Shown: positions 4,610-36,397 of the stretch, piece after piece
Numbering within the stretch: the first letter of the stretch is position 1
How the letters are laid out: the number at the start of each line of letters is the position of its first letter
Assembly: GCF_015355785.1 (NCBI RefSeq)
Contig: NZ_JADKYW010000005.1
Location: 1,243,394-1,307,393, forward strand
From: Arthrobacter gandavensis
GTDB taxonomy: Bacteria > Actinomycetota > Actinomycetes > Actinomycetales > Micrococcaceae
Direction of reading: 5' to 3'
Length of the DNA stretch: 64,000 nucleotides
Notes under the pieces: model-generated
Databases searched by the model: none
Told to the model about the DNA's origin: nothing
What the model saw: the letters and a program-made list of their open reading frames with translations, nothing else
Position numbers and translations under genes: made by a program

Positions 4610-4617
4610 CCCCCCGC

Positions 4618-4673: not shown

Positions 4674-4676
4674 AAT

Positions 4677-19427: not shown

Positions 19428-20824
19428 GCGCCGGCAGTCCGGTACCTTCCCCGGCAGCAAGTGTGCCAGCGCGGGTTGCTGCGGTCCGCAAGGTTTACGC
19501 GAGCGGCCGTACCCGGCCGCTCGCATGGCGGAAAGAGCAGCTGAAATCCCTGATGCGGATGCTCTCCGAACGGGAACATGAATTCGCCGCGGCGCTGCGC
19601 GAAGACCTGGGGAAGAACCCCCTCGAGGCCTACCTCACCGAAATCTCCATCACCCGGGCCGAAGCAGCCCACGCGCTGAAGCACCTGACGGACTGGACGC
19701 GCACCACCAAGGTGCCGGTGCCGCTGGGCCTGCAGCCGGCGTCGGCCAAGGTTGAACCGCAGCCGCTGGGAGTGGTGCTGATCATCGCGCCGTGGAACTA
19801 CCCCGTGCAGCTGCTCCTCGCCCCGCTCATCGGAGCGCTCGCCGCCGGCAACGCCGCGGTGCTCAAGCCCAGCGAGCTTGCCCCGGCCACCTCCGCTGCG
19901 GTGGCCCGAATCCTGCCGGAGTACCTGGACCCGGAGGCCGTGGCGGTCATCGAGGGCGCCCAGGAGATATCCAAGGCGCTGCTCGCCGAACACTTCGACC
20001 ACATCTTCTATACCGGCGGGGAACGGGTCGGCAAGATTGTCATGCGCGCTGCCGCCGAGCACCTGACACCGGTGACGCTGGAGCTGGGAGGCAAGTCGCC
20101 CGCCGTCGTGCTGGACGGAAACCTGACCGCCGTCGCCCGGCGACTGGCCTACGGCAAGCTGATCAACGCCGGGCAGACGTGCGTTGCGCCGGACTATGTC
20201 CTGGTTACGGAAGACGCCGCTCCCATGCTGCTTCAGGCCCTCACCAGGGCGCTCCGTGAGCTGGTGGGCAAGGACCCGTCCCGCAGCGCCAGCTACGGAC
20301 GGATCATCAACGAAGGCCACTTTGACCGGATCCTGGGCTACCTGGCGGACGGGACCGTGGTTTCCGGGGGCCGCAGCAGCCGGGAAGACCTCTACATTGA
20401 ACCGACCGTGCTGGCTGACGTGGCCCTGGACGCTCCCGTGATGCAGGAGGAGATCTTCGGGCCGGTCCTTCCGGTGGTTACCGTGCGGGACCTGGACGAG
20501 GCGATGGAAATCATCAACGCCCGCCCTGTCCCGCTGGCGTCCTACCTGTTCACGTCCTCGGCAGCGCAGCAGCGCCGGTTCGAGCAGGGCGTGCGGGCCG
20601 GGTCCGTGAACCACAACGCAGCGATCGTGCAGCTGGCGGTCCCGGAGCTGCCCTTCGGCGGTGCCGGCGCCAGCGGGATGGGCGCGTACCACGGCAAGCA
20701 CTCCTTTGACACGTTCAGCCAGGCCCGCCCGGTCTTCTCGAAGGGAACGCTGCTGGACACCCTGCGCGTGGCGTACCCGCCGTACAACGGGTTCAAGGCC
20801 AGCGTCCTGCGCCGCCTGCTCTGA
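19424..20824 (+). CDS. Aldehyde dehydrogenase, ALDH3-like (fatty/aromatic aldehyde)
   Basis: A 466-residue NAD(P)-dependent aldehyde dehydrogenase. Conserved blocks: 'PWNYPVQLLLAPLIGALAAG' (cofactor site), 'LELGGKSP' (general-base Glu), 'NAGQTCVAPDYVLV' (nucleophile Cys), 'EEIFGPVLPVV' and 'LPFGGAGASGMGAYHGKHSF'. The short length, QTCVAPDY motif and the 'YPPY' C-terminal motif place it with ALDH3/coniferyl or fatty-aldehyde dehydrogenases. It starts inside the SDR stop codon (ATGA), implying coupled translation and sequential reactions from alcohol to acid. The substrate is inferred only from subfamily and neighbour. Confidence 0.88.
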   Translation: MSAGSPVPSPAASVPARVAAVRKVYASGRTRPLAWRKEQLKSLMRMLSEREHEFAAALREDLGKNPLEAYLTEISITRAEAAHALKHLTDWTRTTKVPVPLGLQPASAKVEPQPLGVVLIIAPWNYPVQLLLAPLIGALAAGNAAVLKPSELAPATSAAVARILPEYLDPEAVAVIEGAQEISKALLAEHFDHIFYTGGERVGKIVMRAAAEHLTPVTLELGGKSPAVVLDGNLTAVARRLAYGKLINAGQTCVAPDYVLVTEDAAPMLLQALTRALRELVGKDPSRSASYGRIINEGHFDRILGYLADGTVVSGGRSSREDLYIEPTVLADVALDAPVMQEEIFGPVLPVVTVRDLDEAMEIINARPVPLASYLFTSSAAQQRRFEQGVRAGSVNHNAAIVQLAVPELPFGGAGASGMGAYHGKHSFDTFSQARPVFSKGTLLDTLRVAYPPYNGFKASVLRRLL

Positions 20825-20827
20825 CTA

Positions 20828-20887
20828 ATCGAGATGACAGAAACTGCCCGTATAAACGCTCATACGGGCAGTTTCTGTGATCTCGAT
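20828..20887. repeat. CAGAAACTGC palindrome, copy 1
   Basis: Arms 20828-20853 and 20862-20887 (26 bases, one mismatch, 8-base loop). The outer arm ATCGAGATGACAGAAACTGC is shared with the copies at 22610 and 35771, while the inner six bases are specific to this copy but still pair. It lies between the converging ALDH and phosphoglucomutase genes. Confidence 0.85.
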
Positions 20888-20895
20888 GGGGGGAG

Positions 20896-22527
20896 CTAGG
20901 CGATCACGGAGTCCACGATGGCCTTGGCCTCAGCCTGGACCTCGCTGAGGTGCTCAACGCCCTTGAAGGACTCGGCGTAGATCTTGTACACGTCCTCAGT
21001 GCCGGAGGGCCGGGCCGCGAACCAGGCGTTCTCCGTGGTGACCTTCAGCCCGCCGACTGCGGCGCCGTTGCCGGGCGCCTCGGTCAGCCGTGCGGTGATC
21101 TCCTCGCCTGCCAGTGTGGTGGCAGTGACGTCCGACGGCGACAGCTTGGACAGCGCTGCCTTCTGTTCGCGGGTGGCCGGGGCATCAACCCGTGCGTAGA
21201 CCGGGTCCCCGAACCGGCTGGTCAGTTCACGGTAGTGCTGCGACGGTGTCTTGGACGTGGTGGCGGTGATCTCCGAGGCCAGCAGGGCCAGCAGGATTCC
21301 GTCCTTGTCCGTGGTCCAGACCGAGCCGTCCAGCCGGAGGAAGGAGGCACCTGCGGATTCCTCGCCGCCGAAGGCAACTTCGCCGGAGAGCAGGCCCGGA
21401 ACGAACCACTTGAAGCCCACCGGGACTTCCATCAGCCGGCGGTTCAGGCTGTCGGTAACCCGGTCGATCATGGAGGAGGAGACCAGGGTCTTGCCCACCA
21501 TGGCGTCGCTGCGCCAGCCGGAGCGGTTGGCGTAGAGGTACTCCACCGCGGCGGCGAGGTAGTGGTTGGGGTTCATGAGCCCGGCGTCCGGGGTGATGAT
21601 TCCGTGCCGGTCGGCATCGGCGTCGTTCCCCGTTGCGATGTCATACCGGCCCGCCTGGGCGATAAGGGATGCCATCGCGTCGGGGGAGGAGCAGTCCATG
21701 CGGATCTTCTCGTCCCAGTCCAGGGTCATGAAGCCGAACTGTGGATCCACGCCGGGATTCACCACGGTCAGGTTGAGGCCGTACTGCTCGCCGATGGCGC
21801 CCCAGTAGTCAACGGACGCGCCGCCCATGGGATCCGCGCCGATGTGCAGGCCGGAACCCTTGATGGCATCCATGTTCAGCACCGAGCCGAGGTCGCCCAC
21901 ATAATGCTGCAGGAAGTCGTAGGCACCCACCGACTCTGCCAGCCGGGCCTCGCCCAGCGGCACGCGCTGCACGCCGCGGAGGCCGTTCTCAAGGAGTTCG
22001 TTGGCGCGGTTGGCGATCCAGGACGTGGTTCCTGAATCGGCGGGTCCGCCGGAGGGCGGGTTGTACTTGAACCCGCCGTCGGCCGGCGGGTTGTGGGACG
22101 GGGTGATGACAATGCCGTCCGCCTGGTCCGTGCGGGTGGCGTTGTGGGTCAGGATCGCGTGGCTCAGGGCCGGGGTGGGCGTGAAACCGGTCCGCGCATC
22201 GATCAGGACGTTCACGCCGTTGCCGGCCAGGACCTCCAGCGCGGTGTTCTGCGCCGGCTCCGAGAGGGCGTGGGTGTCCTTGCCCATGAACAGCGGGCCC
22301 GTGATGCCGGCACCGGTGCGGTACTCAACGATTGCCTGGGTAATGGCGGCGATGTGCGGTTCGTTGAAGGATCCCTTTAGGGAGCTGCCGCGGTGGCCCG
22401 AGGTGCCGAACGCAACGCGCTGGCCGGGATCAGCGAGGTCCGGAGCGACGTCGTAATAAGCGTCGAGCAGTTCCGTCAGGTCAACGAGGTCGGATGGTTG
22501 GGCAGGTGTGCCGGCACGGTTAGACAT
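20896..22527 (-). CDS. pgm: Phosphoglucomutase (alpha-D-glucose phosphate-specific)
   Basis: Interconverts glucose-1-P and glucose-6-P, linking glycolysis to glycogen, trehalose and cell-wall sugar nucleotides; cytosolic. It has 543 residues, close to E. coli Pgm. '[13 protein letters not shown]' opens domain 1; the phosphoserine loop is '[12 protein letters not shown]'; the metal loop '[11 protein letters not shown]' and sugar-binding loop 'GGEESAG' follow; '[13 protein letters not shown]' is the phosphate-binding loop of domain 4. The start MSNRAG at 22527 is preferred by family; an ATG four codons upstream is also possible and neither has a strong ribosome site. Flanked on both sides by copies of the CAGAAACTGC palindrome. 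Confidence 0.95.
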
Positions 22528-22609
22528 AGACCCAAGCATGCCAAAGATTCGGTTGTTCCGGCAGGCGCCTTACTTTCGTGCCGCCGTCGCCGCGTCTCCC
22601 GCACCCCAA

Positions 22610-22665
22610 CGAGATGGCAGAAACTGCTCGTTAGAAGCCTCTAACGAGCAGTTTCTGCCATCTCG
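22610..22665. repeat. CAGAAACTGC palindrome, copy 2 (perfect)
   Basis: Perfect 25-bp inverted repeat 22610-22634/22641-22665 with a 6-base loop. The outer arm is CGAGATGGCAGAAACTGC. It lies between the start of pgm and the stop of the ABC ATPase, both on the - strand, so it could end the ABC transporter transcript. Confidence 0.85.
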
Positions 22666-22700
22666 ACGGGAATTGCGGAGCGCGAACGGTTCAGACGGGG

Positions 22701-23489
22701 CTACTGGAGCAGCGTGCGGTCGTCCAGGCCGCCCTTGATCTTCTCGAACTCATGCAGCAGGTCCGGGACGGTCATGGACGCCTTCTGCGTGCTGTCCAGA
22801 TCCAGGATGATCCGCCCCTCGTGCATCATGATCAGCCGGGTGCCCAGGTCCAGTGCCTGCTGCATATTGTGCGTGACCATCAGCGTGGTGAGGTGGTGGC
22901 GGGCCACGATCTCACCGGTCAGGCGGGAGACCAGGGCGGCACGCTGCGGGTCCAGAGCCGCGGTGTGCTCGTCCAGCAGCAGGATCTTCGGCTCGCTGAA
23001 CGTTGCCATGAGCAGGGACAGCGCCTGGCGCTGGCCGCCGGAGAGCAGGCCCACCTTCGCCTTGAGCCGGTTCTCCAGCCCGAGTTCCAGCGACTTGAGC
23101 TCCTCACGGAACAGCTCCCGCTTCTTGGCGGACACCCCCCAGCCCAGGCTGCGGCGCTTGCCGCGTTCGTAGGCGATGGACATGTTCTGTTCGATGCTTA
23201 GCTGCGGCGCGGAACCTGCCATCGGGTCCTGGAAGACCCGGCCAATGAAGCGGGCCCGCTGGTAGTCGGCCAGCCTGGTGACGTCCTTGCCGTCGATGAG
23301 CACCGATCCGGTGTCCGGGCGCAGCTTGCCGGAGACCATGTTCAGCAGCGTGGATTTACCGGCGCCGTTGGAGCCGATTACGGTGATGAATTCCCCGGCC
23401 GCCAGCTCCAGGTCGATTTTCGCCAGGGCAACGCGTTCATTGACGGTGCCGGCGAAGAAGGTCTTCTGTACGTTGTCGATTTTCAGCAT
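22701..23489 (-). CDS. ABC transporter ATP-binding protein (TrpZ-like)
   Basis: A 262-residue ATPase subunit of the importer encoded with the two genes upstream of it. Walker A 'GSNGAGKST', Q-loop 'RVFQDP', signature 'LLSGGQRQALSLL', Walker B/D-loop 'ILLLDEHTAALDP' and His in 'VTHNMQQALDLG' are intact. The signature and 'DEHTAALDP' are typical of the TrpXYZ/DUF534-linked family. The start is ATG with GAGGAAAG; 16 bases separate it from the permease stop, so it is the last gene of a three-gene operon. The substrate is not proven: tryptophan or another aromatic/small metabolite by family. Confidence 0.9.
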   Translation of the reverse strand: MLKIDNVQKTFFAGTVNERVALAKIDLELAAGEFITVIGSNGAGKSTLLNMVSGKLRPDTGSVLIDGKDVTRLADYQRARFIGRVFQDPMAGSAPQLSIEQNMSIAYERGKRRSLGWGVSAKKRELFREELKSLELGLENRLKAKVGLLSGGQRQALSLLMATFSEPKILLLDEHTAALDPQRAALVSRLTGEIVARHHLTTLMVTHNMQQALDLGTRLIMMHEGRIILDLDSTQKASMTVPDLLHEFEKIKGGLDDRTLLQ

Positions 23490-23505
23490 GGTTGTGCTTT
23501 CCTCG

Positions 23506-24405
23506 CTAGCTGGCCGTGGTGACGTTGGACTTGCGCAGGCTGCTGAAGGTCGGCAGCCTGCGGAAGAGGCTCCACTGGGGCAGAATCAGGGCCAGGACCA
23601 CCAGCACCGCGGAAATGAGCTTCATGTCGTTGGGCTCGAAGCCGAGGTCCAGGGCCAGGGCGATGACGATCCGGTAGACCACGGCGCCCAGGATCACAGC
23701 CAGCGTGGAAACGACGATCAGGCGGGAACCGAAGATCGCCTGGCCGATGATGACGGAAGCGAGGCCCACCAGGATCAGGCCGATGCCCATGCCGATGTCC
23801 GCGAAGCCCTGGTACTGGGCCACCACGGCGCCGCAGAGGGCCACGAATCCGTTGGAGAGGGCCAGGCCCAGGATCTTCATGCGGTCGGTGCTGACACCGA
23901 AGCTGGAGACCATCTCCTGGTTATCGCCGGTGGCCTGCATGGCCAGGCCCAGGTCGGTGTGCAGGAACCAGTCCAGGAACAGCTTCACGCCTACGGCCAG
24001 CAGGGCAAACAGGGCGATGGCGACGGCGCCGCCCAGCAGCCCGTTCTCCCGCAGCGGGGTGATGAGCGTGTCTTCGCGGAGCAGGGACAGGTTGGAGGTG
24101 CCCATGATCCGCAGGTTGATGGAGTAGAGCGCGATCATGGTCAGGATGCCCGCCAGCAGCCCGTTGATCTTGCCCTTCGTGTGCAGCAGGCCGGTGACGC
24201 AGCCTGCGACAAGTCCGGCGCCGAATGCGGCGGCCGTGGCGGCCAGGGGTGGAACCCCGTTGATGATGGAGATGGCCGCCACGGCTGCGCCGGTGGTGAA
24301 GCTTCCGTCCACGGTAAGGTCCGGAAAGTCCAGGATCCGGAAGGTGAGGTAAACGCCCAGGGCCATGACGGCGTAGATAAGCCCCAGTTCAACAGCAGTG
24401 ATCAT
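23506..24405 (-). CDS. ABC transporter permease (TrpY-like)
   Basis: A 299-residue membrane subunit with eight to ten hydrophobic helices, of the branched-chain-amino-acid-type permease fold (PF02653). 'GLIYAVMALGVYLTFRILDF', 'DLTVDGSFTTGAAVAA' and the cytoplasmic loop 'QATGDNQEMVSSFGVSTDRM' (EAA-like) are characteristic of permeases partnered with PF04392 binding proteins. The start ATG 24405 follows an A/G-rich ribosome site. It lies 46 bases after the binding-protein gene and 16 before the ATPase. Confidence 0.9.
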   Translation of the reverse strand: MITAVELGLIYAVMALGVYLTFRILDFPDLTVDGSFTTGAAVAAISIINGVPPLAATAAAFGAGLVAGCVTGLLHTKGKINGLLAGILTMIALYSINLRIMGTSNLSLLREDTLITPLRENGLLGGAVAIALFALLAVGVKLFLDWFLHTDLGLAMQATGDNQEMVSSFGVSTDRMKILGLALSNGFVALCGAVVAQYQGFADIGMGIGLILVGLASVIIGQAIFGSRLIVVSTLAVILGAVVYRIVIALALDLGFEPNDMKLISAVLVVLALILPQWSLFRRLPTFSSLRKSNVTTAS

Positions 24406-24451
24406 GGAATTTCTTTTCCTTACAGCGGGGTGGGACGGTCGGCAGCAGGTG

Positions 24452-25441
24452 TTACTCGATGACCTCGTCGGCCTTTTCGAGCAGGGACTCGGGGATTTCG
24501 ATGCCCATGTTTGCTGCGGCGGTCTTGTTGATGACCAGCTGGGTCTCGGAGAGGGTTTCGATCGGCATGGTGGCCGGATCCGCGTCCTCTTCGAGGATCT
24601 TGATCGCCATCAGGCCGGTCTGGTAGCCGAGCAGTTCGTAGTCGATGCCCAGGGTGGCGATGCCGCCGGACTTCACGGCACCTGCGTCGCCGGTGACCAG
24701 CGGGATCTTCTTGGTCTCGGCGATCTGGACGACGGAGTCCAGGGCGGCCACGACGTTGTTGTCGGTGGGGATGTAGAAGGCGTCGACGTCGAGGGACTCG
24801 GCGGCCTGCTGCACCTCGGCGGTGTTGCTCACGGCAGCCAGCTTCAGCTCGACTCCGAGGTCCTTTGCGGCTTCCTGCGCGAGTTCGATCTGCACCTCGG
24901 AGTTGACCTCGCCGGAGCTGTAGACGATGCCGACGGTCTTGGCGTCCGGAGCCAGTTCCTTGATCAGTGCCAGCTGGTCCGCGACCGGGTTCAGGTCGCT
25001 GGTGCCGGTCAGGTTGGCGCCGGGGGCGTCCCATGAATCAACCAGGCCGGCTTCTTCCGGTTCGGTGACCGCGGTGATGAGGATGGGGATGTCGGTGATT
25101 GCCTGCGCTGCAGCCTGCGCCGTCGGAGTGGCGATTGCCAGCACCAGGTCCAGGTCGTCAGAGGCGAACTTGGAAGCGATCGACGTGGCTGTGGCCTGCT
25201 CGCCGGCCGCATTCTGCTCGTCGTAGGAGATGTTCTCGCCTTCGGTGTAGCCGTTCTCGGCCAGCGCCCGCTTGAATCCTTCCTTGGCGGAGGTCAGGGC
25301 ATCGTGCTCCACGATCTGCGTGATGCCGATCCTCACCATGTCCGAATCGCCGCTTGCAGCGGAATCCGAGCCGCAGCCGGTCGCCGCGAGGGATGCACCC
25401 AGCAGCAGGGCCCCCAGTGCCCCTGTCTTTGAACGCTTCAT
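24452..25441 (-). CDS. ABC transporter substrate-binding lipoprotein (TrpX/PF04392 family)
   Basis: A 329-residue lipoprotein: positively charged start 'MKRSKTG', hydrophobic core and lipobox 'LAATGC' with lipidated Cys near residue 23. The mature part 'VRIGITQIVEHDALTSAKEG' and 'DLVLAIATPTAQAAAQ' are conserved in the PF04392 (ABC-sub-bind) family, whose characterised streptococcal member binds tryptophan. It sits on the outer face of the membrane and delivers ligand to the permease. It is the first gene of a three-gene operon, with a leader of about 150 bases and an inverted repeat upstream. Ligand by homology only. Confidence 0.9.
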   Translation of the reverse strand: MKRSKTGALGALLLGASLAATGCGSDSAASGDSDMVRIGITQIVEHDALTSAKEGFKRALAENGYTEGENISYDEQNAAGEQATATSIASKFASDDLDLVLAIATPTAQAAAQAITDIPILITAVTEPEEAGLVDSWDAPGANLTGTSDLNPVADQLALIKELAPDAKTVGIVYSSGEVNSEVQIELAQEAAKDLGVELKLAAVSNTAEVQQAAESLDVDAFYIPTDNNVVAALDSVVQIAETKKIPLVTGDAGAVKSGGIATLGIDYELLGYQTGLMAIKILEEDADPATMPIETLSETQLVINKTAAANMGIEIPESLLEKADEVIE

Positions 25442-25646
25442 CGTTGCCCTTTCAGTGCGCTGCCCGGCGGCGGACGGCGCCGGCCGGGCAGGGTGTCGTT
25501 GTGCCGGACGCTGGCATCCGGTCCCCGGCCCGACGTCGTTGATCGGAGCCCGGCAAACGGGTGCGGTTCAGCACCGGCTGATTGAATGATACTAACTGTG
25601 AGGGCGCTTACATTGTCTAATGCGACGCGCGACGTGGAGACAGATG

Positions 25647-25665
25647 CATGCCAGAGCTTGGCATG
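25647..25665. promoter_or_regulatory. Inverted repeat CATGCCA-N5-TGGCATG upstream of ABC operon
   Basis: Perfect 7-base half-sites with a 5-base spacer, about 205 bases upstream of the binding-protein start. The size and symmetry suit a dimeric repressor site, but no regulator gene is adjacent. Confidence 0.4.
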
Positions 25666-25752
25666 AGCGGACAAATAATCGACCGTACGGGACCAAAATC
25701 CTCAGAGTGTCCAAGCGGATCGAAAGAGTTCAGCAGGCGGCGCATACGCAAT

Positions 25753-25783
25753 AAGTGCCCGTTTGCAATCCAAACGGGCACTT
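25753..25783. terminator. Hairpin downstream of POT transporter, T-run on + side
   Basis: Arms 25753-25765 and 25771-25783 (13 bp, 5-base loop) are followed on the + strand by TTTGTT and preceded by AATA. It is the first structure after the POT transporter stop on the - strand. Confidence 0.6.
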
Positions 25784-25809
25784 TTTGTTAGGCGATCTAA
25801 AGGAACGGG

Positions 25810-27282
<1,473 letters not shown>

Positions 27283-27445
27283 CGTTCAATAGTCCCAAAG
27301 CGCCGCTGTGACGGATTCGACGTCGAAAGCGAAAATCGGGGTGTTCTACCGGCTTCCATGCAAGTGTATGTGCTGATTATCACCGTCAAAACGGCACTTC
27401 TGTCCACATGCTGGACAAAAAGGCTCCCGATTAAGGCTCTGAATG

Positions 27446-28873
27446 CTATGGACCCAGCTGGGCTGCCACCGCCAGCAGGTCCGCCTCCGCCCCCGGGCGT
27501 CCGATGAGCTGCACGCCCATCGACAGGCCCTCGGCGGTCACATGGGCCGGAATGGTGACGGCGGGGAGTCCGCAGACGTTCACCATTGACGTGAACGGAG
27601 AGTAGCGGCACTGCAGGGCATAGTCTTCCGCGGCGTCCCCGGTCCAGTACCAGCCGATGGGCCGCGGAGTCATGGCCACCGTAGGGGTGAGGATCATGTC
27701 CCAGGCCGAGAACCGGGAAATGGTCTCCTCTTCGAAGGCGCGCAGCACCTCTACGGCCCCGGCCAGGTCCGCAGCGGAGCGCTGGAGTGAGCGGCGGCGC
27801 ATGGCAGCTGTCAGCGGGGTAAGGAACTGCTCGCCCTCCGGCGGCAGCGGGATGTTGGCCAGCGGTGCGGTCCACACCAGTTCGAAGGCGTCCGGGTAGC
27901 GCTCGTCGTAGCGGACGTCGGCTTCCGTCACGTCATGTCCAGCCCCGGTAAGCGCCACGATCCCGGCTTCCAGTGCCAGTGCTGCCTCAGGGTCCAGTCC
28001 AATGTCCAGGCGCGATTCAAAGGGGGAACGGGTGCTGACGCCTATCCGGAACCTGCCCTCGGCCCGCAGTGCAGCTTCCAGGAAGGAGCCGGACGCGGGC
28101 GGGGCGCTGGTGGCGTGATAGTTCGGCTCGGCAACCATCGCATCGAGCAGCAGGGCAGCGTCTGCGGCCGTTCGTGCCAGTGGCCCGGCAACCACAAACT
28201 GGCCCAGGTCCCGCTGGCCGCCGCCGGAGGGCACCCTGCCGCGGTTCGGCTTGAGGCCGACCAACCCGGTGGCGGCGGCCGGAATGCGCACTGAGCCACC
28301 GCCGTCGGTACCCGGAGCGAAAGGCAGCATGCCCGCGGCGACGGCGGCTGCACTGCCGCCCGAAGAGCCCCCAGGGCTAAGCGAGGGGTCCAGGGGATTC
28401 CGTGCCGGTGGGGCAACGAGGTTCTCGCTGTAACTGCTGAGGCCGAACTCCGGAACCTGGGTTTTGCCCAGGCTGATGGCTCCGGCAGCCCGCAGTACGG
28501 CCGGCAGGGGGCCATCCGCCCCGGCGGGAACCTGCGGAACGGCGGCGCTGCCCATGGTTGTGGGGACGCCGGCGACGTCGGTGAGGTCCTTGTGCGCCAG
28601 TGGCATGCCGTGCAGTATCCGCGGCGGTTTTCCGGCGGCCTGCGCTTCGTCGGCCTGGCGTGCTTCGGCGAGTGCCGCATCGGCCGTAACGGCAATGAAG
28701 GATCCAAGTTCCGGATTCAGCGCCTCGATGCGCCCCAGGAAATACTCCGTGGCCTCCCGGGCAGAAACCTCGCCGCGTGCCAGGGCGTCACGCAAGCCCA
28801 GGGCGCTGAGGGAACCGATGCCCTCCCCTGAATGCGGTGTGGGCCGGGGCGGGGTGGCTGGACCATTGGGCAT
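27446..28873 (-). CDS. Amidase (amidase-signature family)
   Basis: A 475-residue hydrolase of the Ser-cisSer-Lys amidase-signature family. Lys in 'GMPLAHKDLTDVAG', the glycine/serine-rich 'GGSSGGSAAAVA', and the nucleophile Ser region 'GTDGGGSVRIPAAATG' are intact. It cleaves an amide or acts like the GatA family, but it is not GatA: no gatB or gatC is adjacent and the C-terminal part ('GWYWTGDAAEDYALQCRYSP') resembles stand-alone amidases. The start is ATG 28873 with a strong GGAGGTAA. The product may feed on peptide- or nitrile-derived amides, possibly linked with the peptide transporter downstream; substrate unknown. Confidence 0.9.
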   Translation of the reverse strand: MPNGPATPPRPTPHSGEGIGSLSALGLRDALARGEVSAREATEYFLGRIEALNPELGSFIAVTADAALAEARQADEAQAAGKPPRILHGMPLAHKDLTDVAGVPTTMGSAAVPQVPAGADGPLPAVLRAAGAISLGKTQVPEFGLSSYSENLVAPPARNPLDPSLSPGGSSGGSAAAVAAGMLPFAPGTDGGGSVRIPAAATGLVGLKPNRGRVPSGGGQRDLGQFVVAGPLARTAADAALLLDAMVAEPNYHATSAPPASGSFLEAALRAEGRFRIGVSTRSPFESRLDIGLDPEAALALEAGIVALTGAGHDVTEADVRYDERYPDAFELVWTAPLANIPLPPEGEQFLTPLTAAMRRRSLQRSAADLAGAVEVLRAFEEETISRFSAWDMILTPTVAMTPRPIGWYWTGDAAEDYALQCRYSPFTSMVNVCGLPAVTIPAHVTAEGLSMGVQLIGRPGAEADLLAVAAQLGP

Positions 28874-29006
28874 TGTTACCTCCGGTGCGCGGGCGGCTTT
28901 GTTCTCTGGCGGTGCATCCCACTATAGGCTGGGACAAACGGCACGGACGCCCCCGCAGCGTGCCTTGTCAGACCCGGTACAGAGACTGTGAGGAAGTGTG
29001 AGCGAG

Positions 29007-29324
29007 ATGGAAAACGTTTCTGTGGACACGATTGGCGGCGGCGCCCGGATCCTGGACGTGCGCGAGGACTACGAATGGGAAGCAGGACACATTCCAAACG
29101 CCGTGCACATCCCCCTGGACCAGCTGCCAGACCACCTCGACGACCTTGACCCGGACCAGGACCTGGCCGTCATCTGCCGTTCCGGCGGGCGAAGCGCGCG
29201 TGCCACCCAGTGGCTCGAATCCCACGGATACTCCGCGGTCAACGTCACCGGCGGCATGGGTGCCTGGCTTGAAGCGGGCAAGGAAATGGTCTCCGAAAAC
29301 GGGCAGGAACCGACCGTCGTATGA
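29007..29324 (+). CDS. Rhodanese-like domain protein
   Basis: A 105-residue single rhodanese domain, cytosolic, of the GlpE/thiosulfate-sulfurtransferase type. 'ILDVREDYEWEAGHIPNAVH' is the CH2A region and the active-site loop 'CRSGGRS' carries the persulfide Cys. I chose the ATG at 29007 because GAGGAAG (28990-28996) is too close to the in-frame GTG at 28998. Its TGA overlaps the ATG of pheA, so they are translationally coupled. It likely moves sulfane sulfur, but the acceptor is unknown. Confidence 0.88.
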   Translation: MENVSVDTIGGGARILDVREDYEWEAGHIPNAVHIPLDQLPDHLDDLDPDQDLAVICRSGGRSARATQWLESHGYSAVNVTGGMGAWLEAGKEMVSENGQEPTVV

Positions 29325-30283
29325 GTCCTGAGGGCACCCCGGGGCGGTCCAAGCTCCCGGGAACCATGGTCTACACCTATCTGGGACCCGAGGGAACCTT
29401 CACCGAAGCTGCGCTGCTGCAGGTCCCCGGTGCCGCTGAAGCGGTAAGGATCCCCTCCACCAGCGTCACCTCCGCACTGGAGATGGTCCGCTCAGGTCAT
29501 GCGAACGCTGCGGTGGTACCGATCGAGAACTCGGTGGAGGGCGGCGTCAGCGCCACCCTGGACGCCATTTCGATTGGGCAGCCGCTGCGGATCCTGCGCG
29601 AAATCCTGGTGCCCATCACCTTTGTGCTGGCAGTGCGGCCGGGCGTTGAACTCGAAGAGGTCCGCCGGGTTTCAACGCACAGCCACGCCTGGGCCCAATG
29701 CCGCAACTGGGCGGAAGCGAATATTCCCAAAGCGGAATACCTGCCCGCCTCCTCCACGGCGGCCGCCGCCGTCGGGCTCTTGGATGAATCCCCCGGGTTC
29801 GACGCAGCCATCTGCGCCCCGCTGGTCGCTTCACGGCTGGGGCTGGACGTGATTGCCCGGGACATTGGAGACATTTCCGACGCCGTGACCCGGTTCATCC
29901 TGATCAGCCTGCCCGGGCTGCTGCCGGAACCCACCGGCGCGGACAAGACCACCGTGGTGATCCCCCTGCCCGAGGACCGCCCGGGCGCACTGATGGAGAT
30001 CCTGGACCAGTTCTCCACCCGGGGAGTCAACCTCAGCCGAATCGAGTCCAGGCCCACCGGGGCCTTCCTGGGCGACTATTTCTTCAGCATCGACGCCGAC
30101 GGGCACGTTTCCGATGCCCGGGTGGCGGACGCGCTCAAGGGCCTGCACCGGGTGTCACCGGAGCTGAGGTTCCTGGGCTCCTATCCGCGTGCGGACCACC
30201 GCCGCGCCCACGTCCTGCCGCACACCTCCGACTCCGCCTTCGAGGCGGCGGACCAGTGGCTCGAATCCCTGATTAACGGCTGA
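29321..30283 (+). CDS. pheA: Prephenate dehydratase
   Basis: Converts prephenate to phenylpyruvate in phenylalanine synthesis; cytosolic, 320 residues, monofunctional (no chorismate mutase domain). 'YTYLGPEGTFTEAALL' begins the catalytic domain, and 'RFILIS' near residue 190 corresponds to the TRF motif with the catalytic Thr ('DAVTRF'). The C-terminal ACT domain ('DRPGALMEILDQFSTRGVNL') contains 'SRIESRP', the Phe-binding ESRP motif, so feedback inhibition by phenylalanine is expected. The start overlaps the rhodanese stop; MVYTYLG 15 codons later is an alternative. Confidence 0.94.
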   Translation: MSPEGTPGRSKLPGTMVYTYLGPEGTFTEAALLQVPGAAEAVRIPSTSVTSALEMVRSGHANAAVVPIENSVEGGVSATLDAISIGQPLRILREILVPITFVLAVRPGVELEEVRRVSTHSHAWAQCRNWAEANIPKAEYLPASSTAAAAVGLLDESPGFDAAICAPLVASRLGLDVIARDIGDISDAVTRFILISLPGLLPEPTGADKTTVVIPLPEDRPGALMEILDQFSTRGVNLSRIESRPTGAFLGDYFFSIDADGHVSDARVADALKGLHRVSPELRFLGSYPRADHRRAHVLPHTSDSAFEAADQWLESLING

Positions 30284-30284
30284 C

Positions 30285-31259
30285 ATGCCCCGGCTGCGAC
30301 GCAGTAACTGCGAACATCCCGGCTACACCCGCCTTCGCTGGGGCAAGGGGTTCAGCTACCGCGGGCTGAAGGGCGAGGTGCTGAAGGATCCGGCGGAACT
30401 GCGCCGGATCCGTTCCCTCGCGATTCCGCCTGCCTGGCAGGACGTCTGGATCAGCCCCTACGCCAACGGCCACATCCAGGCCACCGGCCAGGACGGCGCC
30501 GGACGCCGGCAGTACATCTACCATCCGCACTGGCGCGAGATGAAGGACCGGGAGAAGTTCGACCGCGCCCTCGAATTTGCCCAGGCGCTGCCGTCCGCTC
30601 GCCGGATCATCACCAAGTACCTCCGCTCGGACGGTCACGGGCCGGACCGCGCGCTGGCCGCGGCCCTGCGGATCGTTGATTCAGGGGCTCTCCGGGTGGG
30701 CGGATCCCGGTACGCGGAGATGAACGGGTCCTACGGCACTACCACCCTGAGGGTGGAACACGTTACGGTCCAGGACACCCGTCTGTTGCTGGATTTCCCG
30801 GGCAAGAGCGGCCAGGAATGGCACGTGGAGCTTGATGACGAGGACCTCGTCGCGGCGCTTGTGCCCATGCTCGAGCGTCCGGAGCCGGACACCGCGCTTG
30901 CCTACGTGGGGGTGGATGGGCAGTGGCACAGCATTGACGCCTCCCAGTTGAACAGCTTTCTCCGGGAGGTGACCGCCGGAGATTTCAGTGCCAAGGATTT
31001 CCGGACGTGGCAGGCAACAGTCTCGGCGGCCATGGGCTTTGCCCGGGCCGCACGGACCGCTTCAACCAAGCGGGCGCAGCAGCAGGCCGTGGCGCAGACC
31101 ATCCGGGAAGTCGCCGAAAGGCTTGGCAACACCCCGGCCGTAGCGCGGAAGTCCTACGTGGACCCCCGGCTGGTTGACCGGTTTCTTGACGGGGATGTCA
31201 TTCCGGTGGCCGGATACTCCGCCTCTGAGACAGCTGTGCGGGAAATGCTGAGCGAATAA
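30285..31259 (+). CDS. DNA topoisomerase IB (poxvirus type)
   Basis: A 324-residue type IB topoisomerase, which relaxes supercoils through a 3'-phosphotyrosine bond. 'GYTRLRWGKGFSYR' and 'IPPAWQDVWISP' are the N-terminal clamp; 'KYLRSDG', 'LRVGGSRYAEMNGSYGTTTL' (catalytic Arg and the family's RxGxxxY block) and 'ARKSYVDPRLVD' (nucleophile Tyr) form the active site. It starts one base after the pheA stop, so it is probably in the same transcript, although no functional link to phenylalanine synthesis is known. Present in a scattered set of bacteria, common in Arthrobacter relatives. Confidence 0.92.
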   Translation: MPRLRRSNCEHPGYTRLRWGKGFSYRGLKGEVLKDPAELRRIRSLAIPPAWQDVWISPYANGHIQATGQDGAGRRQYIYHPHWREMKDREKFDRALEFAQALPSARRIITKYLRSDGHGPDRALAAALRIVDSGALRVGGSRYAEMNGSYGTTTLRVEHVTVQDTRLLLDFPGKSGQEWHVELDDEDLVAALVPMLERPEPDTALAYVGVDGQWHSIDASQLNSFLREVTAGDFSAKDFRTWQATVSAAMGFARAARTASTKRAQQQAVAQTIREVAERLGNTPAVARKSYVDPRLVDRFLDGDVIPVAGYSASETAVREMLSE

Positions 31260-31353
31260 CCCGCGGAAAACCGTCCGGGTCTATGGTAAGTATGCTTATA
31301 TACCGTTGGCGCCAGTTGCCGGCGGGAGAAGCCATCACAGCGAAAGGCGGACC

Positions 31354-31635
31354 ATGAGCGAGTACCCGAACGAAGACGAGCAGCTCACCAACCCCAAGCC
31401 CAGCGGGCAGGCCAGCGGCGACGACAACTACCGCGGAGACATTGGCGACCAGGGAAATGACCTTCGTTTCGCCGAAGAGCAGGAGCTCATCCGCGAACAG
31501 GCCTCCCCGGCATCCGTGAAGCACGAGGAAGGCGAGTACACCGACGCCGACGGACGCAAGCAGCCGCCGTCGACCTCGCACAACGCTGCTGAGACCGAAG
31601 GCAGCTACACCGATTCAGAAGGCACGCAGGACTAA
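31354..31635 (+). CDS. Small acidic, probably disordered protein
   Basis: A 93-residue, strongly acidic, Gly/Ser/Thr/Asn-rich protein without hydrophobic segments. Two short copies of a G-[ES]-Y-T-D-[AS]-[DE]-G motif stand at 'GEYTDADG' and 'GSYTDSEG'. The start is ATG 31354 with AAAGGCGG upstream; an in-frame codon further up lacks a site. It faces the lipid kinase gene, with stops six bases apart. I do not recognise a family; composition suggests a stress-type hydrophilic protein, but that is a guess. Confidence 0.75.
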   Translation: MSEYPNEDEQLTNPKPSGQASGDDNYRGDIGDQGNDLRFAEEQELIREQASPASVKHEEGEYTDADGRKQPPSTSHNAAETEGSYTDSEGTQD

Positions 31636-31641
31636 GCCGGC

Positions 31642-32757
31642 CTACCCGGCGCCGAAGCGCCTGAATGCACCGGTCCGGCCGCCAGCCAGTGCGGCCGGAC
31701 CGGTTCCTGCGTCCGGCGCCCGCACAAGCAGGGAACGCGGGTCGACGCTCACGCTCACCCGTGTTGCGGCGCCTGTCAGGTCGCCGTCGAGCTGGGTAAT
31801 GATCGGCTCCTCGGTGCTGACAGTGACCTTCCGCGCCCTGGTGTATTCGATCAGGGAGAGTTCCCTGCGGTTCCGGGTCACCACCTTGCCGGCAACCGCC
31901 AGCCACCCCAGGACGGTGCGGGGAGTGAGGACCACAATGTCCAGCATCCCGTCGTCCAGGGCAGCGGCTGGAATGAAATCGATTCCGGCGGGCAGCTTGC
32001 CGGTGTTGGCGAACAGTACGCTGCGGACCTTGCGGACCTGGCCGGGAACGTCGTCGAGCTGGATCCGCATCCGCCGCCTCGGCCCGGGCAGCAGCCGGAT
32101 GCCTGCCTCGCTGTAGGCCAGCCACCCCACCCGGCGTTTGAGGTCATCCCGGGTTGCGGCAATGACTTCGGCGTCCAGGCCGATGCCGCCCATGACCAGG
32201 AAGTTGCTGGCTGACCGGGCGCCGGTGCGTGAGTTCTCGAGCTCCACCCGGCCCATGTCGATCCGTCGCTCGGTTCCGTGCAGGGCAGCCTGGATGCTGC
32301 CGGACAGATCATTGACGGCCACGCCGAGGTTCCGGGCCAGCAGGTTGCCGGTTCCCAGCGGCAGCAGCCCCATCGCCGCAGGCTGGTGGGCCAGTGCCCG
32401 TGCCACCTCGCGGACCGTGCCGTCACCGCCGGCCGCCAGTACGACGTCGGCGCCCGCCGCCAGCGCGTCCAGCGCCTGGCGGTAGCCGGGGGAGTCCACG
32501 GTTGTCTCGAAAACCAGCGGCGGTTCCCAGCCGGCCATTTTGCATGCGGCCGTCAGTGCTGCTTTCGCCTCGCCCGCCTGGGCCTTGACGGGGTTGATCA
32601 CCACGGCTACCCGCTGGCTCGCCGACGCGACCGGGCGGGTGATCCGCCCGGCAGCCGCCTGCCGCCGGTGCCGCCGCGAGATCACCTGCCAGGTGGCGAT
32701 CGAAGCCAGCAAGGCAGTGGCCACAATGAGCAGGAGTACGGTAATTTCGGCGGGCAT
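31642..32757 (-). CDS. Diacylglycerol kinase-family lipid kinase
   Basis: A 371-residue membrane-associated lipid kinase of the DagK/YegS family. One N-terminal helix (residues 5-25, 'ITVLLLIVATALLASIATW') is followed by the catalytic domain: 'VVINPVKAQ', 'LAAGGDGTVREVA' (nucleotide-binding GGDGT), 'LPLGTGNLLARNL' and 'DDGMLDIVVL'. It may make phosphatidate from diacylglycerol. The start at 32757 is inferred from the membrane anchor; TATCCT nine bases upstream is a possible -10. It is divergent from serS, 66 bases away. The open frame continues far upstream antisense to serS, which is not coding. Confidence 0.88.
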   Translation of the reverse strand: MPAEITVLLLIVATALLASIATWQVISRRHRRQAAAGRITRPVASASQRVAVVINPVKAQAGEAKAALTAACKMAGWEPPLVFETTVDSPGYRQALDALAAGADVVLAAGGDGTVREVARALAHQPAAMGLLPLGTGNLLARNLGVAVNDLSGSIQAALHGTERRIDMGRVELENSRTGARSASNFLVMGGIGLDAEVIAATRDDLKRRVGWLAYSEAGIRLLPGPRRRMRIQLDDVPGQVRKVRSVLFANTGKLPAGIDFIPAAALDDGMLDIVVLTPRTVLGWLAVAGKVVTRNRRELSLIEYTRARKVTVSTEEPIITQLDGDLTGAATRVSVSVDPRSLLVRAPDAGTGPAALAGGRTGAFRRFGAG

Positions 32758-32811
32758 GGTGGTTTCAGGATAGCCGCCGGTCAGGGTGCGGGTCCCGGAA
32801 GCTGTTTTCGG

Positions 32812-32817
32812 TACTCT
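32812..32817 (+). promoter_or_regulatory. -10 element of leaderless serS transcript
   Basis: TACTCT lies exactly six bases before the GTG at 32824; no Shine-Dalgarno is present. Confidence 0.55.
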
Positions 32818-32823
32818 TGAGAC

Positions 32824-34092
32824 GTGATCGATGTAAATGAGCTGCGAGAAAATCCTGAGAAGTTCCGAGCATCCCAGCGCGCCCGGCTGGCCGATCCGGA
32901 GCTGGTGGACGCGATCATTTCCGCGGATGCCCGCCGGCGCGAGGCCCGGACCCGCTACGAGACCCTGCGTGCCGAGCAGAATGCCTTTGGCAAGCGCGTG
33001 GCCCAGGCCAAGGGCGAAGAGAAGCAGGCCCTGCTGGCGGAGGTGAAGGAATTGGCTGCGGCCGTCAAGGCTGCCGGCACCGAAGCAGACGCAGTGCAGG
33101 CCGAGCAGGAGGCCCTGGTCCGCCGCGTCGCCAACGTCGTGGAAGACGGCGTCCCGGCCGGCGGCGAAGACGATTTCACGGTCCTGAAGACCGTTGGCAC
33201 GCCCCGGGACTTCGACGCCGAAGGCTTTACCCCGCGCGATCACCTCGAGCTGGGCGAACTGCTCGGTGCGATCGACATGGAACGCGGCGCCAAGGTTTCC
33301 GGATCCCGGTTCTATTTCCTGCGCGGCGTTGGAGCGCGCCTGGAGCTGGCCCTGCTGCAGATGGCCATGGACCAGGCGGTCAAGGCCGGCTTCATCCCCA
33401 TGATTACCCCCACCCTGGTCCGTCCAGAGACCATGCAGGGCACGGGCTTCGACGTGGCACACGACGCCGAGATCTACCGCCTCGCCGAGGACGACCTGTA
33501 TCTGGTGGGAACCTCCGAGGTTCCGCTGGCCGGCTACCACTCCGACGAGATCATGGACCTCAGCGCCGGGCCCGTCCGCTACGCTGGCTGGTCCTCCTGC
33601 TACCGCCGCGAAGCCGGATCCCACGGCAAGGACACCCGCGGCATCATCCGGGTGCACCAGTTCAATAAGGTGGAGATGTTTACCTACACCCCGGTTGAAG
33701 AAGCCGCCGCGGAACACCAGCGGCTGCTGGCCTGGGAAGAGGAGATGCTCGCCAAGGTGGAGCTGCCCTACCGCGTCATCGAAACAGCCGCCGGAGACCT
33801 GGGCATGTCCGCAGCCCGCAAGTACGACTGCGAAGCCTGGGTTCCCACCCAGGGCGCCTACCGCGAGCTGACCTCCACGTCGAACTGCACCACGTTCCAG
33901 GCCCGCCGGCTGAACATCCGCGAACGCCAGGACGGCAGGACCCGCGCCGTCGCCACGCTGAACGGCACCCTGGCCACCACGCGCTGGATCGTCGCCATCC
34001 TGGAGCACCACCAGAACCCGGACGGCTCGGTCAACGTCCCGAAGGCACTGCGGCCCTACCTGGGCGGCCTGGAAGTTCTGCCCGTCCAGTAG
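32824..34092 (+). CDS. serS: Seryl-tRNA synthetase
   Basis: Class II aminoacyl-tRNA synthetase charging tRNA-Ser (and tRNA-Sec where present); 422 residues, normal length. The N-terminal ~110 residues form the tRNA-binding coiled coil. Motif 2 is '[20 protein letters not shown]' and motif 3 is '[18 protein letters not shown]'; '[10 protein letters not shown]' is the serine-specific TxE loop. It begins with GTG directly after a -10-like hexamer and is followed by a long hairpin, suggesting a single-gene transcript. Confidence 0.97.
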
Positions 34093-34143
34093 CTGTTGCC
34101 GTGCTGCCCCTGGATCCGCGGGGCAGCACGGGCGCAGCAACAG
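34093..34143 (+). terminator. Hairpin after serS
   Basis: An inner stem 34100-34110/34120-34130 (11 bp, CGTGCTGCCCC) and an outer stem 34093-34099/34137-34143 (CTGTTGC) enclose the space right after the stop codon. No U-run follows, so it could equally be a 3'-end protecting structure. Confidence 0.6.
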
Positions 34144-34214
34144 TTCACCGGCTGTTTGTGCCCGGTGTGAACCGCGTCCTACCGGTATTTACCCGCGTCT
34201 GTTTATATGAATCG

Positions 34215-35060
34215 ATGACAACTCTCACTTCTGCCGGCACCGAAGACCGGTTCAACACTGGCAGCAAACACCTCATTGCCCTGGACGTCGACGGAACCCT
34301 GGTGGACCACGACGGACACATGTCCCCCGATGTCCGATCCGCGGCCAGGGATGCGATCGACGCCGGCCACCACCTGGTGATCTCCACCGGCCGGTCCTAT
34401 GGCGCCGCCCTTCCGGTCCTGGAGAGCATTGGCCTGACCGAGGGCTTCACCGTCTGCTCCAACGGCGGCGTCACCCTTCAGATGGATCCCTCCCTGCCGG
34501 ATGGCTACGAAATCATCGACCGGGTGGTCTTTGACCCCCGTCCCGCACTGGACGCCCTGCGCGTGTCACTGCCGGCTGCCAAGTTCGCCCTGGAAGACCA
34601 TGAGGGGCGGTTCCTTTCCACCGAGCGATTCCAGGACGCCAGCTTCGGCGCGGAAGCGCAGGCCGTGGACTTCGAATACCTGCGGGAAAGCAAGGCCGTG
34701 CGCGTGGTGGTCTTCAGCACCGACAGCACCGCCAAGGAGTTTGGCGACGCCGTAGCCGCCATCGGCCTGCACGGGGTGACCTATTCAGTGGGGTGGACCG
34801 CCTGGCTGGACATCGCCGCCGCGGGCGTGACCAAGGCGTCGGCCCTTGAACAGGTCCGCCGCCGGCTGGATATCGATCCCCGGCACACCGTCGCGGTGGG
34901 AGACGGCCGGAACGATATTGAAATGCTCTCCTGGGCAGCGCGGGGAGTTGCCATGGGCCAGTCCCCGGACGAAGTGCTCTCAGCCGCCACCGAAGTAACC
35001 GGCTCGGTCTACGAGGACGGCGCCGCGAAGGTCCTGCGCAGCCTGCTGGATCCGCTCTAG
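34215..35060 (+). CDS. HAD superfamily Cof-type phosphatase
   Basis: A 281-residue HAD phosphatase, distant relative of the one at 9558. 'ALDVDGTLVDHDG' supplies the nucleophile and acid/base Asp, 'ISTGRSYG' is motif II, the C2 cap occupies roughly residues 95-200, and 'VAVGDGRNDIEML' is the metal motif. The start ATG 34215 has no ribosome site but lies six bases after the AT-rich TTATAT, which suggests a leaderless or near-leaderless message. It is four bases from the stop of the converging SatD-like gene. Substrate unknown; probably a sugar or nucleotide phosphate. Confidence 0.87.
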   Translation: MTTLTSAGTEDRFNTGSKHLIALDVDGTLVDHDGHMSPDVRSAARDAIDAGHHLVISTGRSYGAALPVLESIGLTEGFTVCSNGGVTLQMDPSLPDGYEIIDRVVFDPRPALDALRVSLPAAKFALEDHEGRFLSTERFQDASFGAEAQAVDFEYLRESKAVRVVVFSTDSTAKEFGDAVAAIGLHGVTYSVGWTAWLDIAAAGVTKASALEQVRRRLDIDPRHTVAVGDGRNDIEMLSWAARGVAMGQSPDEVLSAATEVTGSVYEDGAAKVLRSLLDPL

Positions 35061-35063
35061 CGC

Positions 35064-35702
35064 CTACCTGGCCGCATAGGGCAGGGGAGCCGGCGGCAGG
35101 GCAACGGGACCGGACACCAGGTCCAGCAGGCGGGCGGCCGCGGGCCGTGTGGCCCATTCCTCGACCCAGTGGGAGCGCACCACGGCCTTGCTGACGGCCT
35201 GGGCCGTGATGCCCAGTTCCTGGGCAACGTACTTTTGCTGTCCCCGGGCTCCGGGAGTCATCAGGTCAAGGACCTTCCACTCCGCAGCGGTCCGGCTGGC
35301 AACGAGCTGGCCCAGCAGGCGCAGCACCGCCTCGGCCTCGGACGCCACCTCGGCGTCGGGACCCTCCACGGCCAGCGGGATCCGGTCGCCCGACCGCTGG
35401 GCACGCTCCACGGCCCGGCGTGCGTAGACCAGGCCAAAACCCTCCGCCTGCAGCACGTTGGCCGGGAGCGGGCGGAGGAGTTCGCCGACGCCGATTCCCA
35501 CATTCCAACGGCGGGCACGGATGGCTATCAGCGCGGCATCAACTGCGGCCGAGGGATGGGCCAGGATGCCCTGGGCCTCGTCCCCCACCGACCGCTGGAA
35601 ATCCACTGCAGCGGGAATATGGCGCAGTGAGCGCACCAGGTCCGGAACCTGGTCCCCTGCTTCGCGGGAATCCCGCTGGTTGATGGTCAGCACGAAATGC
35701 AT
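35064..35702 (-). CDS. SatD-like protein with C-terminal helix-turn-helix
   Basis: A 212-residue protein. The N-terminal ~130 residues follow the SatD pattern ('INQRDSREA', 'SVGDEAQGIL', 'NVGIGVGE', 'GLVYARRAVERA'). The C-terminal part 'QQKYVAQELGITAQAVSKAV' is a clear helix-turn-helix, so it probably binds DNA. SatD proteins have no established activity. The start MHF (35702) is chosen by family; an in-frame GTG at 35729 adds nine residues. A perfect 16-base palindrome lies 32-47 bases upstream, where the promoter must be, which suggests self-repression. It converges on the HAD gene. Confidence 0.75.
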   Translation of the reverse strand: MHFVLTINQRDSREAGDQVPDLVRSLRHIPAAVDFQRSVGDEAQGILAHPSAAVDAALIAIRARRWNVGIGVGELLRPLPANVLQAEGFGLVYARRAVERAQRSGDRIPLAVEGPDAEVASEAEAVLRLLGQLVASRTAAEWKVLDLMTPGARGQQKYVAQELGITAQAVSKAVVRSHWVEEWATRPAAARLLDLVSGPVALPPAPLPYAAR

Positions 35703-35733
35703 GGCATCAGCATGGCAGAGCAACCCCACCGGA

Positions 35734-35749
35734 CAACCGATATCGGTTG
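35734..35749. promoter_or_regulatory. Perfect palindrome CAACCGATATCGGTTG, likely operator
   Basis: A 16-base perfect palindrome just upstream of the SatD-like gene, overlapping the only AT-rich hexamer there (GATATC). It is not followed by a loop, so it is a protein-binding site rather than a hairpin terminator. Confidence 0.6.
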
Positions 35750-35770
35750 AGCGGCGTGCCGCACTTCCCC

Positions 35771-35826
35771 CGAAATGACAGAAACTGCACGTACCAGCGC
35801 TGGTACGTGCAGTTTCTGTTGTCTCG
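35771..35826. repeat. CAGAAACTGC palindrome, copy 3
   Basis: The core arms 35778-35798 and 35799-35819 are a perfect 21+21 inverted repeat without spacer. The outermost seven bases on each side (CGAAATG/TGTCTCG) match the family but pair imperfectly. It lies downstream of ppa and upstream of the SatD-like gene, both - strand. Confidence 0.85.
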
Positions 35827-35851
35827 GTGGTGAGAAAGGGAGAAGGCGCCC

Positions 35852-36397
35852 TTAGTTGTTCGCGGGGTCTGCGTCGACGTCGCGGCCCTGGGGCTCGTCC
35901 TCTTCGCGCTGCTCACCCAGTGCCTCGAAACGCGCCAGGGAGGCTTCGACCTCGGCCTCGGCGGCTTCGCGGCCGGCCCAGTCAGCTGCCTCGACCCACT
36001 TGCCGGGCTCCAGGTCCTTGTACTTGGTGAAGAAGTGCTTGATCTCATCCAGCAGGAAGTCCGGAACATCGGAGATGTCCTGAATGTGGTCGAAGCGCAC
36101 ATCCGCCGGGACGCAGAGCACCTTGGCATCTCCGCCGCCGTCGTCGACCATGTTGAAGACGCCGATCGGACGGGATTCAACCAGCACGCCCGGAATGAGG
36201 TCGAAGTCCTGCAGCATCACCATGGCGTCCAGCGGATCGCCGTCTTCGCCGAGGGTGTTTTCGAAGTAGCCATAGTGCGTGGGGTACTGCATGGAAGTGA
36301 ACAGCACGCGGTCCAGGCGCAGGCGGTGCGTCTCGTGGTCGATTTCGTACTTGACGCGGGATCCCTTGGGGATCTCGATCGTTACGTCGAGTTTCAT
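35852..36397 (-). CDS. ppa: Inorganic pyrophosphatase (family I)
   Basis: Hydrolyses pyrophosphate to phosphate, pulling biosynthetic reactions forward; cytosolic, 181 residues. '[16 protein letters not shown]' opens the fold, the signature 'DGDPLDAMV' binds the metals, and 'DIQ/DISDVP' and '[15 protein letters not shown]' are typical of the bacterial enzyme. The last ~20 residues ('[14 protein letters not shown]') are an acidic extension not needed for activity. The start MKLDVT at 36397 has TAGGAG upstream; a longer frame to 36532 is not coding by composition. Confidence 0.95.

Follow-up and report, generated by a model that had tools for sequence, protein, structure and literature searches.

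Palindromes in the analysed region

The analysed DNA (the window, a stretch of 64,000 nucleotides from Arthrobacter gandavensis) carries pgm, on which an aldehyde dehydrogenase gene converges, an ABC transporter ATPase gene and ppa, with a palindrome of 60 bp located at the 3' end of each of the last two and of pgm (Table 1). Three palindromes had been placed here by an earlier note made from the letters of the DNA; all three are present, the full unit spanning 60 bp in each case, and the gene labels given to their neighbours (pgm, ABC ATPase and ppa) were confirmed by Pfam. The third copy deviates from the common outer arm proposed at that time, GAGATG-(A/G) (it has GAAATGA on one side and GAGACAA on the other), and the statement that each palindrome lies behind one stop codon of the minus strand does not apply to the first, which follows two stops (aldehyde dehydrogenase, 20824, and pgm, 20896).

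Table 1. Copies of the palindrome family in the window and their neighbouring genes
Feature	Positions	Strand	Remarks
Degenerate fourth copy	4616-4675		CAGTTACGGC-type arms; in gap between convergent genes; covariance-model match
Aldehyde dehydrogenase gene	19463-20824	+	Pfam PF00171, gene call; converges on pgm
Family copy, 60-bp palindrome	20828-20887		Between convergent aldehyde dehydrogenase (+) and pgm (-) genes
pgm, phosphoglucomutase	20896-22539	-	Pfam PF02878, PF02879, PF02880, PF00408; first palindrome at 3' end
Family copy, 60-bp palindrome	22608-22667		33 nt past stop of ABC transporter ATPase gene (-), upstream of pgm
ABC transporter ATPase gene	22701-23489	-	Pfam PF00005; second palindrome at 3' end
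Family copy, 60-bp palindrome	35769-35828		23 nt past ppa (-) stop
ppa, inorganic pyrophosphatase	35852-36421	-	Pfam PF00719; third palindrome at 3' end

The 9-mer arm CAGAAACTG occurs seven times in the window versus 0.34 expected from 100 dinucleotide shuffles, and six of the seven occurrences are palindrome arms. Folding energies of these three palindromes range from -42.6 to -48.8 kcal/mol, with z-scores from -11.4 to -12.9, and a search of the window against Rfam rendered no matches at gathering scores. Directly after the degenerate copy, a second near-perfect palindrome of unrelated sequence (AACGACGGCGGCCGGTTCCC..., 4677-4727) was found, so that the same convergent gap holds two tandem hairpins.

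Size and anatomy of the family

In the genome to which the window belongs (G000; 3.37 Mb in 9 contigs), the arm pair CAGAAACTGN{2,30}CAGTTTCTG is found at 39 exact sites, with a spacing between arms of 22 in 38 of them and of 23 in one, while the reversed pattern is found at none. A covariance model built on these 39 exact copies rendered 138 strand matches, which were sorted into at least 70 places, a lower bound corresponding to 150 scored candidates out of 1256. The dispersed family that the earlier note had postulated is real: its arm is more frequent than expected by chance in the window, its arm pair outnumbers the reversed control genome-wide, and a single one of the 70 copies lies inside a called ORF.

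The unit consists of a near-perfect stem of 60 bp in total with a loop of about 4-8 nt, in which the outer arms are nearly invariant and the inner bases variable, as judged from the 39 exact copies, for which the exact arm was itself the search pattern. The foot of the copies read by eye is ATCGAGATG, or CGCGA(A/G)ATGG in other genomes. The half-site CAGAAACTGC occurs 90 times, 85 of them within the 70 places and 5 outside, compared with 7 for the reversed control. Places added by the covariance model include the arm types CAGAAAGTGC, CAGAAACGGC and CAGTTACGGC. Among the 26 added copies without indels, identical 10-mer cores are present on both arms in 12, and at least 20 of the 28 Watson-Crick pairs are kept in 25; the mean number of such pairs is 22.2 in the eight CAGTTACGGC-type copies versus 25.1 in 38 exact copies. 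Many copies have matching arms, and copies with mixed arms are found as well (e.g., C8:617282 and C5:62594). The Watson-Crick counts, and the analyses of arm agreement, target-site duplication and flank pairing described below, do not include six of the 70 copies that have indels or match in part.

Position relative to genes

On the basis of genes called with a home-made codon-usage script, which is not a standard program, 34 of the 70 places separate convergent genes, 30 tandem genes and 5 divergent genes, the remaining one falling within an ORF whose call may be wrong. The median distance from stop codon to palindrome edge is 14 nt (98 gene ends), that from palindrome edge to start codon is 80 nt (40 gene starts), and 28 of the 30 tandem copies are closer to the upstream stop. 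As a baseline, convergent junctions account for 7 of the 57 in the window, and both of the convergent ones with a gap of at least 60 nt hold a family copy. In 155 kb of the same genome (the window plus L275-L279), the seven convergent gaps of at least 40 nt hold a family copy in two cases, another hairpin in three and none in two. A similar placement was observed in two other genomes of the genus, with 14 convergent, 9 tandem, 2 divergent and 5 unplaced copies among 30 examined in G213, and 11, 6, 1 and 2, respectively, among 20 examined in G131.

In the spacers that separate stops from palindromes (72 spacers), C makes up 58% and G 15%, versus 39% C and 28% G behind 60 other stops. Pairing of these C-rich flanks with G-rich ones, which would extend the stem, is slightly worse than in permuted flanks (0.38 versus 0.41). 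The surroundings of the divergent copies were also scanned for tRNA genes that might be unnoticed neighbours, and none was present at the loci scanned.

Distribution, dialects and descent

The spread across the Micrococcaceae for which the earlier note had suggested looking is not supported by the exact core, which was found in only 8 of 295 genomes of the family, a sample without G295, with 39 copies in G000, 45 in G032, 39 in G100, 33 in G232 and 1-2 in four others. The covariance model, which was run on one Arthrobacter genus, has matches in 17 of the 29 genomes of that genus. With up to 150 candidates scored per genome, strand matches number at least 138 in G000, 143 in G032, 137 in G100, 119 in G232 and 95 in G295, and at least 62 in G213, 50 in G131, 21 in G058, 8 in G249 and 6 in G297; elsewhere there are 8 in G183, 4 in G080, 7 in G241 and one in each of four more genomes. 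In a tree of acs, the first five genomes form a clade (support 95/91) sister to G183, G080 and G194, while the second five fall inside a clade of eight together with G159 (one match), G293 and G298 (no matches). The three G295 copies that were read have CAGAAACTGC arms, and most of those read in the second group have arms like CGCGA(A/G)ATGGCAGAA(A/G)GTGC. A further genus-wide dialect based on GGTGCC was sought, and 7-24 matches per genome were found versus 6-16 with the reversed control, the excess being largest in G272 (24 versus 7) and G194 (22 versus 6); a family of comparable size is thus not apparent for GGTGCC, a small one being possible.

The comparison of orthologous places included 44 loci, 34 with a G000 ortholog among the copies compared and 10 without. 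A G000 copy is present at the orthologous place for 24 of 33 G032 copies (drawn from ca. 72, with a selection favouring strong matches), 8 of 9 G100 copies and both G232 copies, and the identity of the inner 20 nt is 94% between orthologs and 65% between paralogs. Copies are inherited vertically between close relatives. Further away, the flanking genes are the same as those of a G000 copy for 8 of the 30 copies examined from G213 and for at least 7 of the 20 from G131, figures that include any chance sharing of preferred sites. When four of the ten loci without ortholog were compared with guessed syntenic stretches of G000, the site of L259 turned out to be free of any palindrome, that of L246 had other genes between the flanks, and those of L233 and L261 could not be located.

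Several G213 copies (L209, L213, L214, L215 and L219) carry two different arms. Some copies of this genome also have letters in common past the palindrome, such as agagattgagcacgt in L209 and L214, which suggests from the sequence that they may have been duplicated as part of a longer unit.

Pairing and co-variation of the arms

The two arms of a copy agree with each other to an extent that permutation does not reproduce, 1602 matches being counted in 64 of the 70 copies versus a permuted mean of 1406 and a maximum of 1465 (0 of 5000 permutations reached the observed value). In the 39 exact copies (38 distinct), 91.6% of the cells are paired versus 86.2% in shuffles, and 68 cells are double-changed versus 33; both values, as well as a co-variation score, are above all 500 shuffles. 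Two other measures do not exceed the shuffles, the number of pairs changed on both sides being as high in 324 of 500 and that of further pair types in 99 of 500. All five measures are higher than in slid controls. Arm agreement among copies does not by itself prove selection for pairing, since the copies descend from one another.

Orthologs of G000 and G032 were compared position by position in 23 of the 24 pairs, L254 (with a 1-nt indel) being left out. In these, 12 pair positions are double-changed, 11 of them being Watson-Crick in both species versus 3.5 expected, and 40 are changed on one side only. Without L238, a pair in which the dialect is swapped, there are 5 double changes versus 1.0 expected (P 0.001), and if the column rates are also kept, 5 versus 2.3 (P 0.055). 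Paired change between orthologs is thus present, and it is moderate at this short range.

Fixed sites with changing sequence

At the convergent junction G000 C8:702161, acs (Pfam ACAS_N and AMP-binding) faces an OsmC-like gene (Pfam OsmC), which we take to be probably ohr. A palindrome is located within ca. 110 nt past the acs stop in all 29 genomes of the genus, each of them surpassing all 100 mononucleotide shuffles; in the other genomes the neighbour is presumably also OsmC-like, judging from common downstream letters. The dialect at this junction is CAGAAACTGC in the first clade and CAGAAGGTGC in G213, G131, G058, G249 and G297, and the sequence differs in the remaining genomes, including the sister genomes G183, G080 and G194. 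At the pgm end, palindromes are present in A. gandavensis and also in A. yangruifuii. At G000 C6:114809 and its G032 counterpart L238, the flanks match and the inner stems are similar, with outer arms that belong to two different dialects, and the G032 copy L259 stands opposite the palindrome-free G000 site mentioned above. Gain, loss and rewriting in place are each possible at these sites. Because the acs/OsmC-like palindrome is kept in 29 of 29 genomes and the arms at C6:114809 and L238 are in two dialects, one may speculate that a terminator spreads by rewriting other terminators, the arms at fixed gene ends being converted between copies to the current dialect of the genome, so that 3' ends would evolve in concert; we regard this as rather doubtful.

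Probable 3'-end hairpins and alternative explanations

A family that is dispersed, is placed at 3' ends, has paired and co-varying arms, uses different dialects and descends between close relatives is probably one of bidirectional 3'-end hairpins, expanded in certain lineages of a single Arthrobacter genus and then transmitted vertically. As a copy usually lies just past the stop codon, a transcript arriving from either side would carry a hairpin of ca. 25-27 pairs preceded by a short C-rich, G-poor spacer, and this hairpin would most likely be the 3' end of both transcripts. RNA polymerase could be stopped without a clean U-tract, as in the I-shaped type, or 3' exonucleases could be blocked after Rho-dependent termination. 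The lineages would have amplified the family in different dialects, the copies then passing down vertically with some paired changes in their arms. Termination or protection of 3' ends is thus the role that the palindromes most likely play, as far as it can be read from their sequence and position.

The copies fold strongly, stand near stop codons and could be used from both strands, as is characteristic of a bidirectional 3'-end hairpin or I-shaped terminator, and placement, arm agreement and the comparison of orthologs support in outline the structured 3'-end feature with co-varying arms that the earlier note had considered. The copies lack the unpaired U-tract that comes after the GC-rich hairpin of a classic intrinsic terminator, their TTTCTG being within the stem; a simple terminator scan of 20500-36500 rendered four sites, fewer than the shuffle mean of 9.1, and flagged none of the three family copies there. 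Counting against a role at 3' ends are the 5 of 70 copies between divergent genes and also the near-invariance of the arms: terminators need no invariant sequence, and arms so constant point either to a recent source from which they descend or to a protein that recognises them. A shorter hairpin with a T-rich tail is located at 25753-25788 of the window, its stem core GTGCCCGTTTG being common with the family, and two matches that score weakly with the model, in G213 and G131 (L218 and L231), are T-tailed versions. These sequences suggest that the family may have originated from ordinary terminators, of which the 25753-25788 hairpin would possibly be the relative.

A selfish mobile palindrome of the REP or MITE kind, moved by some transposase and without host function, would also leave numerous almost identical copies within one clade, further arm versions within a single genome (among which the CAGTTACGGC type is somewhat less well paired) and occupied sites such as L259 opposite empty ones, the 3'-end placement then reflecting tolerated insertions. 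We consider this unlikely, because the placement is tighter than tolerance predicts, given the tandem copies and the median of 14 nt reported above, because 64 copies searched for target-site duplications of sizes 2-10 gave no signal (the lowest P, 0.055, being that of size 10), and because Y1 transposase is absent from the 29 genomes of the genus. The co-variation of the arms could itself be mutational. Template switching during replication perfects imperfect palindromes and would yield paired changes without selection. Such an origin is possible, though less likely than not: it fits the many copies with matching arms, though copies with mixed arms occur, and it leaves unexplained the dispersal, the 3'-end placement and the acs/OsmC-like palindrome in 29 of 29 genomes. 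Template switching could also act alongside the 3'-end hairpin explanation.

If the palindromes were instead sites of a sequence-specific DNA-binding protein of the nucleoid- or chromosome-organising type, with the arms as the two half-sites of a dimer, almost invariant outer arms around variable inner bases would be expected (the exact arm being, again, the search pattern), as would dialects that differ by genome through co-evolution with the protein. However, the half-site CAGAAACTGC is not in excess as a solitary motif, a co-varying stem of ca. 25 pairs exceeds what half-sites need, and binding sites offer no reason for a placement at 3' ends, which renders this reading very improbable. The same lack of solitary motifs (5 of 90 outside palindromes, 7 in the reversed control) speaks against a DNA-uptake signal of the Neisseria or Pasteurellaceae kind paired in terminators. 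The family resembles DUS and USS, as presented in the accessible parts of PMC3630211 and PMC1852404, in its conserved motif that recurs, its inverted pairing at gene ends and its dialects that differ by species, but uptake signals generally number at least 1,000 according to the latter, against ca. 70 places here, so that an uptake function is hardly credible.

Comparison with known elements

Bidirectional or I-shaped terminators are similar to the present family in having a symmetric hairpin close behind stop codons, favoured between convergent genes. Ordinary terminators vary in sequence from site to site, unlike the ca. 70 places of this family, which share a closely similar 60-bp sequence. 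In Streptomyces clavuligerus, a class of stem-loops lacking U has been tied to I-shaped terminators or Rho-dependent transcript 3' ends, as far as the accessible text of PMC8269248 goes, and the family hairpins resemble these U-lacking ends in having no U-tract. REP elements are likewise short palindromic, intergenic repeats with many copies; in the available portion of PMC3733652 they are described as units of 20-40 bp tagged with GTAG or CGTC, the GTAG ones having RAYT transposases. The term "REP-like" used in the earlier note is adequate for the dispersal, but not for the RAYT-type class, since the present family has a longer unit (60 bp), no GTAG/CGTC tetranucleotide at the foot of the copies read and no Y1 transposase in the genus (PF01797 in 0 of 29 genomes, the control search being positive in 5 of 14 known genomes). 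Target-site duplications as expected of MITEs were not observed either, no excess of direct repeats of sizes 2-10 being found in 64 of 70 copies. Compared with DUS and USS, in which an inverted motif is likewise repeated inside terminators and varies in dialect between species (PMC3630211 and PMC1852404, in the parts available), this family has no solitary excess, far fewer copies and a longer unit. The Bor, Ype, Efa and other families of repeated stem-loops near gene 3' ends are alike in kind and differ in taxa and sequences, and the accessible parts of PMC1590033 and PMC2267715 make no mention of dialects that differ by clade at a single orthologous site.

Carriage by phages or plasmids was not supported, the 60-nt consensus having no match in phage or plasmid collections. 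Eleven IMG/VR stretches contain both 9-mers, with an unrelated inner sequence that is mostly unpaired by eye and a GC content of 0.28-0.57, and were taken as chance matches. No description of this palindrome family was recognised in the titles and abstract beginnings of the literature matches listed, and the available part of the article on RepRanger (PMC12306157), which has a table with palindrome counts for Arthrobacter livingstonensis, gives no account of such a family. As far as these partial sources go, the kind (3'-end hairpins, repeated stem-loops) is known, and for this Arthrobacter family itself no description was found.

If the 3'-end hairpin explanation is right, transcript 3' ends in a bacterium would be supplied by a multiplying, dialect-changing repeat family without the known REP transposase. 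The family would offer dozens of natural variants for the study of how transcripts of GC-rich bacteria are ended by long hairpins free of a U-tract, and comparison of close relatives would allow the spread of a repeat to be separated from its use at gene ends.

Other palindromes were also observed within the Micrococcaceae. In genus g10, an unrelated palindrome family, GCTCTCTCACTT...AAGTGAGAGAGC, is present in 10 of the 295 genomes with up to 10 exact copies, and in other Arthrobacter and Pseudarthrobacter genomes unrelated palindromes are located downstream of pgm (L098, L103, L107, L108 and L109), the GCTCTCTCACTT...AAGTGAGAGAGC type recurring within genomes. Genome-specific families of 3'-end palindromes may be common in the Micrococcaceae.
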